From IMG/VR virus record IMGVR_UViG_3300031688_000139, positions 1-22,815 of that record: a stretch of 22,815 nt of DNA; one strand, written 5' to 3'. Numbering within the stretch: position 1 is the stretch's first letter; every line of letters begins with the position of its first letter. Source of the DNA: a virus. The notes beneath the pieces were generated by a model. It did no database searches, was not told where the DNA came from, and saw only the letters and a program-made list of their open reading frames with translations. Of this stretch, positions 6,189 through 18,483 are shown piece by piece. The position numbers and the translations under genes were made by a program.

Positions 6189-7169
6189 TTATTGTTGTTG
6201 TTGATTATCTGAAACCTCCATATCCTTCCCAAAAGCAACTACATCAGCTTCTCTTATTTCAAGACCTACGTATTGACAAATCTTAGCTATTAACATAGGT
6301 TCATCAGAAAGAGGTAATTCAAAGTCTTGATAATCAGCCGCTGAAGCGTCAAACAAAGGTTCTCCAGCCAATAAAACAGCATAAGTCCAGTTTGGAGCTA
6401 AAGGATATCTAATGTACTGTGATGTAAATCTTCCAGGTGTATTTATCGTAATAGGAAAAGCTTCTGCTACGAGAGCATTTTGAGTGTATGCTGGATAGCT
6501 TATATTTGGTTTTGTTAAAACAGAGTTGTTTAACATTGTAATTTTACTTTGTGCTACTCTTTCTGCTTCAACAATATCATTGGCTGAATATATATTGTAA
6601 CTTTTTCCTACATTATCCCAAACTGTTTCACCTGCTGTTGCAAAGACTAAAAGATTTGTTGCGTTTACAACTGTAGAAATTACGGTGTTATAAACCGCTC
6701 CATTTGAAATTGCAGAAACAATATCCCCAACAGCTACTCCTGCCGCAATAAAATCCGCTGTAGTGTCGTTTACCGCTGTAGCAGCGCCATTGGTCGAAGT
6801 TGTTACTCCTGAAGCCAATACTTTAGTAAACACCAACATCTTATTAATCAAATAATAATCAGAAGGTAGTGTATATAGATTTGGTGCAATACTTGCAGCT
6901 CCTATAATCCCAGGATTATTTAATAAAGGAATATTTACATAAAAAGTATCTATAACCTCTGCTAATCCTTTTGTAATATCCGCATAACCAGTACCTGAAA
7001 TTCTTTGATTTTCTTTTACTATTTGATTGTTGTATTGATAAAAATAATCCTCAAACATATCCATTTGAGATTGTTGAGCATATAAATTAAAATCTTGAGG
7101 AGATATATATCCATAATTATTTTTATTTGCTATGGCTAATACAGTGTTTCGTACTTCGTTTATTGGCAT
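6189..7169 (-). CDS. Connector/ring structural protein with an inserted beta module (326 aa)
   Basis: This is the first gene of the tail operon, with its ATG 15 bases downstream of a TAnnTTTG box. The N-terminus (VRNTVLAIANKNNYGYISPQ, then DFNLYAQQSQMDMFEDYFYQ) resembles the start of the ring or adaptor proteins in crAss-like structural blocks. A G/A/T/V-rich segment at about residues 119-195 interrupts the protein (…TADFIAAGVAVGDIV… to …VGKSYNIY). It looks like a small beta domain inserted between two conserved helical parts. After it the sequence returns to an alpha/beta virion-type fold that includes YIRYPLAPNWTYAVL. The end is a short glutamine tail (DNQQQQ). Its neighbours are the 307-aa connector and the 1608-aa tail protein, which supports a tail-connector role. 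No enzyme signature is present, and the exact ring assignment is open. Confidence 0.62.
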   Translation of the reverse strand: MPINEVRNTVLAIANKNNYGYISPQDFNLYAQQSQMDMFEDYFYQYNNQIVKENQRISGTGYADITKGLAEVIDTFYVNIPLLNNPGIIGAASIAPNLYTLPSDYYLINKMLVFTKVLASGVTTSTNGAATAVNDTTADFIAAGVAVGDIVSAISNGAVYNTVISTVVNATNLLVFATAGETVWDNVGKSYNIYSANDIVEAERVAQSKITMLNNSVLTKPNISYPAYTQNALVAEAFPITINTPGRFTSQYIRYPLAPNWTYAVLLAGEPLFDASAADYQDFELPLSDEPMLIAKICQYVGLEIREADVVAFGKDMEVSDNQQQQ

Positions 7170-7184
7170 AATTAATTCTTTTTA

Positions 7185-7192
7185 CAAAGATA
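7185..7192 (-). promoter_or_regulatory. Candidate Bacteroidota -7 promoter box for the tail operon
   Basis: On the minus strand this reads TATCTTTG, matching the TAnnTTTG -7 consensus of Bacteroidota promoters. It lies 15 bases upstream of the ATG of the 326-aa gene and directly after a terminator U-tract. No TTG is present at the usual -33 distance; that stretch is occupied by the terminator hairpin. It is one of four such boxes, each in an intergenic gap. Confidence 0.5.
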
Positions 7193-7194
7193 GC

Positions 7195-7229
7195 AAAAAA
7201 AAAGAGGTTACTTTTTTTTGTAACCTCTT
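7195..7229 (-). terminator. Intrinsic terminator after the 92-aa gene
   Basis: The minus strand shows a perfect 9-10 bp stem (AGAGGTTAC with GTAACCTCT), an all-A loop of 8 bases and a run of nine T. It lies about 46 bases after the stop of the 92-aa gene. The structure matches a rho-independent terminator. Confidence 0.88.
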
Positions 7230-7256
7230 GATTAATTAAAGTATGATTGTATTGCT

Positions 7257-7292
7257 GTATTCTTAATTAATGCTGTTATGCATTAAGAATAC
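7257..7292 (-). repeat. Imperfect inverted repeat spanning a stop codon
   Basis: On the minus strand GTATTCTTAATGC (7280-7292) is followed by a 6-base loop and then GCATTAATTAAGAATAC (7257-7273). The two arms are complementary apart from a 4-base bulge. The TAA stop of the 92-aa gene lies in the loop. It is AT-rich with no T-run of its own, so it is not a classical terminator. It could be a 3'-end structure that protects the transcript. Confidence 0.6.
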
Positions 7293-7554
7293 TTGTCACA
7301 GCTTTTGGAAGACTTACCTCATAATAAGGCTTCTGCCAAGATGTAGCTAATGCTACTTCTATATTCTCTAATATAGAGTTGTAAACATCATGAGCTACTT
7401 GAGCTGCTGTTGTAATTGTAGTAGTAGTTCCATCAACATAATCGATTGTAACTGTTACTGCCGTAGCTGTTGCTGTAGCAACCGCTTTTACTCCATCAAG
7501 ACTGATCAATTGACCAGTAATAGGAGCATTCGTAATTTTAAGAAATTTTACCAT
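7276..7554 (-). CDS. Small beta-rich virion-type protein in a one-gene cassette (92 aa)
   Basis: The protein begins MVKFLKITNAP and is dominated by T, A, V and I in alternating patterns (VATATATAVTVTIDYVDGTT), as expected of a small beta-sandwich or barrel. The C-terminal half turns helical (YNSILENIEVALATSW). I chose the ATG at 7552-7554. The frame is open further upstream to 7611, but that start would lie inside the preceding terminator hairpin and before the promoter box, so the longer form is unlikely. The gene stands alone: a TAnnTTTG box is 33 bases upstream, terminators lie on both sides, and it sits between head and tail genes. This isolation suggests separate, possibly high-level expression, as for a decoration or abundant minor virion protein. 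That role is inference; I do not recognise a named family. The stop is TAA. Confidence 0.72.
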   Translation of the reverse strand: MVKFLKITNAPITGQLISLDGVKAVATATATAVTVTIDYVDGTTTTITTAAQVAHDVYNSILENIEVALATSWQKPYYEVSLPKAVTSILNA

Positions 7555-7586
7555 TTTATAAAAAGTTTTTAATGGGTTAATAAAGT

Positions 7587-7606
7587 ACAAATATAGCAAA
7601 AAAAAA
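7587..7606 (-). repeat. 20-base terminator-promoter junction element, copy 1 (copy 2 at 7184-7203)
   Basis: The minus strand reads TTTTTTTTTGCTATATTTGT here and the same with C at one position (TATCTTTG) at 7184-7203. The two copies match at 19 of 20 positions. Each joins the U-tract of a hairpin terminator directly to a TAnnTTTG box. Confidence 0.8.
7588..7595 (-). promoter_or_regulatory. Candidate -7 promoter box for the 92-aa gene
   Basis: It reads TATATTTG on the minus strand, 33 bases before the chosen ATG and two bases after the T-run of the upstream terminator. A -33 TTG is not visible at the expected spacing. It matches the TAnnTTTG consensus and the three other boxes in the window. 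Confidence 0.5.
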
Positions 7607-7626
7607 GCCACCCTTTTAAGGTAGCT
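7598..7626 (-). terminator. Intrinsic terminator after the 254-aa gene
   Basis: On the minus strand AGCTACC pairs with GGTGGCT (six Watson-Crick pairs and one T-G wobble that works only on this strand), followed by nine T. It begins 21 bases after the stop of the 254-aa gene. Confidence 0.83.
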
Positions 7627-7647: not shown

Positions 7648-8412
7648 TTACTTTTTATTCTTTAATTTATTTTTTAAAAGTTTATAAACCTCAAGTCCTT
7701 CATCTGATTGTAAAAAAGAACCAACAATATAGTTTGGATCTTCTCCGTAAGGAACTGTTAGCATTTTCTTTTTATTGTTAGGTAAATTATAATAAACATC
7801 TTTATTGTTATTTCTAAACGCAATAAAACCTGCTATTACAAATTGATGGATTGTATCCATTAATTCTAACATTGGATCATTTATGGTATTCATAAAATCT
7901 TCTGGTCTTGATTTAGCGTATAAAAGAATATCTCTTTTTAATTCTGGAATAGTCATATTGTCTACACCATTACCCATTAAAACTCTACATACTGAAGTTA
8001 ATTTATTTACATCAGTAGTTATTTTTTTAGCTTCTATTTGAGCATTTAACTCCGCTTCAACGTATTCTAATTCAACAGACGCATCGCGAGAATTATTTAT
8101 TTCTTCAAACACCATTCCATTACTTGGATGATAGTGTAAGAATTTTTGTAATGATTGATTTTGTTTCTCAACCATTAACATACCATCTTCAAAAACAATA
8201 GGCTCTAAAATTGCATTACCATCTTGCTCATCCTCAAATGGGCTTCTCTGGTTTCTTGCATAACGAAGAGGTCTGTTAATACCTTGTTCTTCATCAAAAT
8301 GTAATAAAGGAGATCTACTTGAATGCCTTGAAGCCAGCATATATGAAAGTGGATACTGGTTGCCTGAAAGTCTATAGGCTTTGTTTTCGTACTTTTCTTT
8401 TTGTTTTGACAT
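7648..8412 (-). CDS. Conserved virion-associated protein of unknown function (254 aa)
   Basis: This gene follows the capsid gene. The protein has an R/S-rich beginning and then a strongly patterned block: FDEEQGINRPLRYARNQRSP, FEDEQDGNAILEPIVFEDG and HPSNGMVFEEIN (residues about 38-108). A helical region with ELKRDILLYAKSRPEDFMN follows, and then DVYYNLPNNKKKMLTVPYGE and FLQSDEGLEVYKLL before a lysine-rich end. I have the impression of seeing this arrangement in marine phage head-gene clusters, but I know no assigned function and see no enzyme motif. The ATG is 77 bases after the capsid stop and downstream of the capsid terminator. No promoter box is visible in that gap, so expression probably depends on leaky read-through, giving less of it than of capsid. 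A terminator follows the gene. Confidence 0.7.
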   Translation of the reverse strand: MSKQKEKYENKAYRLSGNQYPLSYMLASRHSSRSPLLHFDEEQGINRPLRYARNQRSPFEDEQDGNAILEPIVFEDGMLMVEKQNQSLQKFLHYHPSNGMVFEEINNSRDASVELEYVEAELNAQIEAKKITTDVNKLTSVCRVLMGNGVDNMTIPELKRDILLYAKSRPEDFMNTINDPMLELMDTIHQFVIAGFIAFRNNNKDVYYNLPNNKKKMLTVPYGEDPNYIVGSFLQSDEGLEVYKLLKNKLKNKK

Positions 8413-8435: not shown

Positions 8436-8473
8436 ATAAAAAATAATTACCCTCGTCATTATAACGAGGGTAA
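8436..8473 (-). terminator. Strong intrinsic terminator after the major capsid gene
   Basis: The minus strand has a perfect 10-bp stem (TTACCCTCGT with ACGAGGGTAA), a 7-base loop and a T-rich tail (TTATTTTTTAT). It starts about 16 bases after the capsid stop. This is the most GC-rich hairpin seen in the window's intergenic DNA. Confidence 0.88.
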
Positions 8474-8489
8474 GTATTACTACTATTTA

Positions 8490-11168: not shown

Positions 11169-11176
11169 CAAAGTTA
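11169..11176 (-). promoter_or_regulatory. Candidate -7 promoter box for the scaffold-capsid unit
   Basis: It reads TAACTTTG on the minus strand, in the 53-base gap between the portal stop and the ATG of the scaffold-like gene, 16 bases before that ATG. No TTG is found near -33. It matches TAnnTTTG and would allow capsid and scaffold to be made at a higher level than portal. Confidence 0.42.
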
Positions 11177-18475: not shown

Positions 18476-18483
18476 CAAATATA
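18476..18483 (-). promoter_or_regulatory. Candidate -7 promoter box for the terminase-portal operon
   Basis: It reads TATATTTG on the minus strand, in the 57-base gap after the 1024-aa fibre gene, 30 bases before the ATG of the 84-aa gene. No -33 TTG is seen. The surrounding DNA is almost pure A/T. No GC-rich terminator hairpin separates it from the fibre gene, so transcription from upstream may continue through. Confidence 0.5.

Follow-up and report, generated by a model that had tools for sequence, protein, structure and literature searches.

A gene for a 92-aa protein lies in a variable slot, between the gene for a 254-aa protein and that for a virion structural protein, in the 22,815-base virus record analysed here (the whole stretch, hereafter the window), and each border of the slot reads as a transcription stop followed by a transcription start, the two placed within ~45 bases. 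We consider it likely that this interval between the 254-aa gene and the virion gene is a site for moron-like cassettes, bordered by terminator–promoter junctions whose predicted promoters are of the host primary-sigma type.

Genomic setting of the slot

On the minus strand of the window, the genes run in the order terminase, portal, a 383-aa protein, a capsid-like protein, the 254-aa protein, the 92-aa protein and two virion proteins of 326 and 307 aa. The 92-aa gene (7276–7554, minus strand; ATG at 7554, stop at 7276) is accessory and belongs to the MxK[FY]L family. It is followed by the gene for the 326-aa virion protein (6189–7169, minus strand; phrog_14543, head and packaging, E = 1e-33), which would be served by the downstream promoter, and is preceded by the 254-aa gene (7648–8412, minus strand; phrog_34748, unknown function), which forms the upstream border of the slot in 234 of 234 loci with both flanking genes.

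As judged by the capsid-like protein, the nearest annotated phages are MW202828 (61%) and Flavobacterium Elemovirus (44%), followed by the Pervagoviridae phi38:1 and Calle_1 (37%) and the Pachyviridae phi18:3 (25%). In the Pervagoviridae (phi38:1, Calle_1), Elemovirus and the Pachyviridae (phi18:3), the portal gene, the capsid-like gene, the 254-aa-like gene and the virion genes come in the same order as in the window. The source phage is flavobacterial and podovirus-like, and the slot is common to a large, widespread group of marine flavobacterial phages. An assignment of the window to the crAss-like phages was rejected, the best annotated relatives being Elemovirus, Pervagoviridae and Pachyviridae.

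Two junctions frame the 92-aa gene

An earlier note on this DNA had described a 20-base element at both ends of the cassette, alike at 19 of 20 positions. This holds: TTTTTTTTTGCTATNTTTGT matches with 0 mismatches at both 7184–7203 and 7587–7606 on the minus strand, and the sole difference between the two copies is the base at N (C versus A). The element has the form T9-GC-TATnTTTGT, and each copy stands behind a hairpin. No further match to TTTTTTTTTGCTATNTTTGT occurs in the window at ≤3 mismatches (chance expectation 0.12).

The upstream border begins with a hairpin (7606–7626, minus strand; folding energy –12.6 kcal/mol) that is predicted to end the transcript of the 254-aa gene. It leads into the upstream junction (7587–7606, minus strand), which is composed of T9 (7606–7598), GC, the –7 box TATATTTG (7595–7588) and a T, and from there a conserved leader (7555–7587, minus strand; ...CTTTATTAACCCATTAAAAACTTTTTATAAA), which is kept in relatives, runs up to the ATG. 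At the other end of the gene, a hairpin predicted to end the 92-aa transcript (7202–7229, minus strand; –13.5 kcal/mol) is joined to the downstream junction (7184–7203, minus strand), with T9 (7203–7195), GC, the –7 box TATCTTTG (7192–7185) and a T. By sequence and folding energy, a stable stem followed by a T-run, as in an intrinsic terminator, is present at both junctions, in agreement with the earlier placement of the T-run in a hairpin terminator and of the box two bases further on. The hairpins share with intrinsic (Rho-independent) terminators a G+C-containing stem, a short loop and nine T, but here the next promoter region follows immediately and partly overlaps.

The –7 boxes as candidate promoters

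In work on Flavobacterium johnsoniae, the –7 element of the primary sigma factor is given as TAHHTTTG, with start sites 4–5 nt below the box, AT-rich tracts near –18 and –28, and a weak, much less evident –33 TTTG element (PMC6847099). Both TATATTTG and TATCTTTG fit TAHHTTTG, with no G at the H positions. With positions counted relative to the box, T9 spans ~–23 to –15, so that one T-run could be both the U-tract of the terminator and the –18 tract. Compared with Bacteroidota primary-sigma promoters as described there, the junctions have the same –7 box and an AT-rich tract where the –18 tract would be, but the tract here is a terminator U-tract, and the –33 TTTG, a weakly diagnostic element, was not visible by eye at the expected distance upstream of either window box. 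A scan of the window for E. coli-type promoters returned 52 matches versus 39 expected, and is uninformative for this phylum. Two further –7-like boxes (TATATTTG at 18476–18483 and TAACTTTG at 11169–11176, both minus strand) are located in short intergenic gaps, without terminators.

Conservation of the downstream border

Conservation was counted in loci recruited independently of the junction, via the 92-aa protein, via the 326-aa protein or as named phages. These 140 loci yield 81 distinct intervals between the 254-aa and 326-aa genes, 61 with a 92-aa homologue, 11 empty and 9 with other genes. Loci recruited by the junction (L086–L200) and bacterial loci (L201–L287) were excluded from the counts, apart from L162, L175 and L196, which were also recovered with the 326-aa protein.

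The downstream box is present in 81 of the 81 distinct intervals, and a run of at least six T followed within 0–4 bases by the box in 75 of them, compared to means of 6.4 boxes and 0.095 junctions per 81 in dinucleotide shuffles (200 rounds, largest junction count 1). Hairpin, T-run and downstream box occur together in 76/81, the called hairpin lying 46 nt before the box in 2 of the 76; automatic calling overlooked L012, the junction of which is visible by eye. Within the 92-aa class, the downstream hairpin and T-run are found in 58 of 61 intervals, and 55 of 61 have a T-run-to-box distance of 2 nt. The observation that the hairpins differ in sequence while the junction is conserved extends from the window to its relatives, where the hairpins vary with pairing kept, and T-run, spacing and box stay constant. 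Paired changes in the hairpin arms, read by eye, include GAGGTTAC/GTAACCTC, GAGGCTAC/GTAGCCTC and GAGTCCGAT/ATCGGACTC.

The earlier note proposed a search for the junction at gene boundaries of related phages, and it does recur there. It precedes the virion gene also where the 92-aa gene is absent (MW202828, elemoA, elemoF, phi38:1 and Calle_1), and is thus common to the named relatives except phi18:3 and Maribacter phage Panino, in which no hairpin–T-run junction was found before the virion gene. Since the downstream junction persists whatever the slot contains, it appears to serve the virion gene, and a unit tied to the 92-aa gene is not supported.

The boundary between the capsid-like gene and the 254-aa gene in the same phages provides an internal comparison. 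In the window, a hairpin with a T-rich tail and no TAHHTTTG box follows the capsid-like gene (8447–8473, minus strand). In 60 distinct homologous intergenics, a run of at least six T is present in 56 and the box in 2, which by eye are those of MW202828 and elemoA. A terminator alone therefore brings no promoter here, and the pairing of the two is site-specific.

The upstream border and its leader

The exact upstream box is found in 60 of the 61 distinct intervals with the 92-aa gene, and the combination of T-run and box in 48 of 61, with one changed base allowed (L023). In the other 13, the box lies either just past the 254-aa stop with no terminator (9 intervals) or ahead of the hairpin (4 intervals). 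With the upstream terminator missing or misplaced in these 13 of 61, insulation of the 92-aa gene is not obligatory. From the picture of an insulated single gene drawn in the earlier note, the borders of hairpin and box can be retained, but not the general insulation.

After the upstream box, TTTATTAACCCATTAAAA is unchanged in 47 of the 61 intervals and present in a relaxed form in 51. The sequence CTTTATTAAC occurs once in the window, and shortened versions of the leader (CTTTATTAAC...) stand ahead of the first genes in other cassettes; at the downstream junction the leader is absent. Given this conservation and the shortened forms in other cassettes, promoter plus leader looks like part of a transferable unit. 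A coding reading of the leader (a 111-aa ORF from a GTG) was rejected: in L302 and L314 one A fewer shifts the frame, so the leader is taken as non-coding. Within genomes, the six- or seven-base core of both junctions is identical in 12 of the 44 readable intervals (of 61), compared to 11.7 expected, which argues against recent duplication or copying and points to two sites with a common consensus.

Some loci differ in this region. L052, L054, L058, L078 and L357 have no upstream terminator and carry a small inverted repeat, for example GAGAATATTCTC, directly after the predicted start. In L061, L068, L069 and L081, a G+C-rich hairpin with a T-run takes that leader position instead of the inverted repeat, and L107 has both the leader inverted repeat and a full junction.

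Content of the slot

The slot census covers the 234 loci with both flanking genes, and includes junction-recruited loci and repeat views of the same contigs. A 92-aa homologue is present in 146 and absent from 88, and the gap in the latter is shorter than 150 bases in 39, middle-sized in 24 and long in 25. The short gaps are single junctions or deletion scars. The scars L317, L332 and L342 have lost the gene, and their upstream promoter is disrupted or missing, but the hairpin and T-run of the upstream border remain, as do the T-run and box of the downstream one; the second hairpin of L332 is without its 5' arm. Across the flanks, these loci have 83–89% identity to the nearest gene-bearing locus. 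The flanking genes are adjacent, with gaps of 82–85 bp, in MW202828, elemoA, elemoF, phi38:1 and Calle_1. No 92-aa homologue was found in the 50,697 phage records searched, and phi38:1, Calle_1, Elemovirus and phi18:3 are thus without it.

The longer gaps mostly contain 1–4 ORFs, nearly all with the start M-x-K-[FY]-[LI]. These longer cassettes have one leading box, and none was seen ahead of internal cassette genes; exceptions are L071 and L078, with an extra gene that has its own box, and Panino and phi18:3, with other ORFs. The profile of the other cassette proteins aligns to the 92-aa profile with an hhalign probability of 99 (E = 2.6e-18). Four loci (L086, L154, L164 and L170) have cassettes of 3–4 kb, with proteins of 300–560 aa that start MAKYLGIPL or MANFLKLN. 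Several of these proteins contain LVTNGDF-type stretches, which we take to be reminiscent of carbohydrate-binding modules; a Pfam search gave no match to such modules for them. A two-gene slot was also seen in a phage locus (L278) on a contig binned as a Pseudomonadales genome (WLWP01000006.1, 61,607 bases), which is probably a misbinned phage.

The 92-aa protein and other cassette proteins

The 92-aa gene has a median dN/dS of 0.18 (41 usable of 42 comparisons), indicating that it is maintained under purifying selection. The AlphaFold model of the protein (pLDDT 84.6, pTM 0.74) is beta-rich with one helix. A Foldseek search against the PDB returned no match for this model at E ≤ 0.001, and the PDB sequence search gave only weak matches to enzymes (best E = 0.0046). 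The closest model matches are viral proteins with no named function (E = 1e-8). No Pfam match above the cut-off and no PHROG match were obtained for the 92-aa protein. The other cassette proteins gave no Pfam match above the cut-off, and their only PHROG matches are to two groups of unknown function, phrog_15734 (3 of 21 members) and phrog_30593 (1 of 10). From their position and the behaviour of the family, the cassette proteins are probably virion-associated, and we would guess at capsid decoration.

Junctions elsewhere in viral and bacterial DNA

The pattern T6-N0-6-TATnTTTG has 21 sites in the records of eight relatives, and the slot accounts for 16 of these (counted by hand). Seven records have a pair around the 92-aa gene, and G006 has one site after this gene and another after the second gene. 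Both elemoA and MW202828 have a junction before the virion gene and another before the 254-aa-like gene. The exact 20-mer is present in at least 119 viral stretches, and of 131 exact sites read in viral loci, 109 lie between genes and 127 are accompanied by a hairpin. In genome contigs, a scan without a matched control found it in 87 stretches (by hand count, 66 Bacteroidota by title, 17 other groups, 3 unspecified and 1 Ignavibacteria), of which 53 are intergenic and 31 have a hairpin. Set against the viral figures (109/131 and 127/131), these numbers led us to reject a wider bacterial role of the junction. In 61 Flavobacterium genomes, T7-NN-TATMTTTG occurs at 114 sites versus 30 for the reversed pattern (3.8-fold). 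At about two sites per genome, the junction exists in hosts but is rare.

Discussion

In the explanation we favour, the two junctions are the borders of a variable slot between the 254-aa gene and the virion structural gene. At each border an intrinsic terminator would end the preceding transcript, and a host primary-sigma promoter (–7 TAHHTTTG), 2 nt past the T-run and presumably read by the host RNA polymerase, would begin the next transcript ~4–5 nt below the box; the T-run could double as the AT-rich promoter tract around –18. The downstream border would belong to the virion gene and be kept with or without a cassette, while the upstream promoter and the conserved leader would travel with the cassette, which here would be the 92-aa gene equipped, moron-fashion, with its own promoter and terminator. 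Conservation, the slot itself, gene swapping and loss, hairpin pairing and purifying selection are the parts of this explanation read directly from sequence, and the comparative data fit the earlier suggestion that the unit may end one transcript and start the next.

In PMC4378225, which cites work on lambdoid phages, a moron is a coding region that brings its own promoter and terminator and lies between genes that are adjacent in relatives, and decoration-protein genes are on record there as morons. Like these morons, the cassette is accessory and inserted between genes adjacent in relatives, with its own promoter and terminator by sequence only (box in 60/61, downstream hairpin and T-run in 58/61). 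It differs in that one slot serves many alternative cassettes, whose proteins are mostly of a single family, and in that the borders are fused terminator–promoter junctions. Odd base composition is usual, though not defining, for morons, whereas the GC content of the 92-aa gene (0.358; third position 0.161) is not outstanding beside that of six neighbouring genes (0.299–0.386 and 0.177–0.215); we therefore use the term moron-like and do not file the cassette as a moron.

Several other explanations were weighed. Terminator and promoter might lie close by chance in a compact AT-rich genome, the 20-base match reflecting ancestry and low complexity. Indeed, T9 and the AT-rich box are low-complexity sequences, many of the relatives are close, and the commonest form, GCTATC, may be inherited; but the shuffles (0.095 versus 75 in 81), the scarcity of boxes beside the T-runs of the capsid-end boundary (2/60 versus 56/60) and the hairpins that change with pairing kept next to a constant T-run, spacing and box make such a by-product of packing unlikely. 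That the 20-mer is an operator for a phage late regulator, not a plain promoter, would suit the leader CTTTATTAACCC, which is conserved well past the box and of which different cassettes have a shortened form in common. Nevertheless, the box alone matches the host consensus and the downstream junction lacks the leader, and we regard an operator as quite improbable. Homologous exchange between near-identical junctions could insert or remove the cassette, in keeping with the direct copies that frame the gene and with the existence of empty sites with a single junction. Such a recombination site is very unlikely, given a stretch in common of only ~20 bases, the lack of homogenisation within genomes (12/44 identical, 11.7 expected) and the three scars, which have not collapsed to one junction but retain the first hairpin with its T-run as well as the T-run and box of the downstream border.

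A further explanation accepts the boxes as promoters and has the hairpins act chiefly in 3'-end protection or in reducing read-through, the 254-aa and 92-aa genes being partly co-transcribed and little insulated. The 92-aa gene is still conserved in the 13 of 61 intervals with no terminator before the upstream promoter, and a hairpin without a box follows the capsid-like gene in 58 of 60 intergenics, from which the 254-aa gene is probably read through. The retention of the downstream hairpin and T-run in 76 of 81 intervals speaks against it, and as an account of the whole it is possible but doubtful; for the upstream border, partial read-through is a strong rival to the moron-like slot with terminator–promoter borders.

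The moron-like slot could also involve a relay, in which a polymerase terminating in the T-run remains bound to the DNA and is passed on to the promoter that follows 2 nt later, the T-run acting as both U-tract and –18 promoter element. Reuse of RNA polymerase after termination is reported for the E. coli enzyme in single-molecule work (PMC6978380, PMC6978322), and the authors of the former expect it to depend on the distance between terminator and promoter; at the junctions here this distance is near the minimum. We give the relay little credence. If it were true, any cassette in the slot would pass polymerase to the virion gene, coupling late output while keeping the messages separate.

In titles and abstract openings of the open-licence literature, we found neither this slot nor junctions of this type in Bacteroidota phages described. 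The slot is a site for swappable cargo that occurs naturally in empty, scarred and multi-gene forms across a widespread group of marine flavobacterial phages. The cassette protein family is not described in the Pfam copy searched. The borders are predicted natural parts of ~45 bases that would end one transcript and start another in Bacteroidota, and offer a native arrangement in which polymerase reuse of the kind described in PMC6978380 and PMC6978322 could be tested.

The hairpin at the end of the capsid-like gene

In the window, 8447–8489 contains the strongest of the three hairpins (–17.5 kcal/mol), which ends the capsid-like gene, with no box before the 254-aa gene; the arrangement suggests a step-down of 254-aa expression by read-through. 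A terminator-like hairpin whose inner part (GTGAAMGGYATRC...GTYCYCTTAGTARC) is strongly conserved is found at this boundary in L034, L302, L314, L024–L026, L017, L019, L012 and L071. It had no Rfam match in five sources. Its outer stem has paired changes (4 of 14 pairs, in 5 sequences), and a pattern for it was found in 15 viral stretches.
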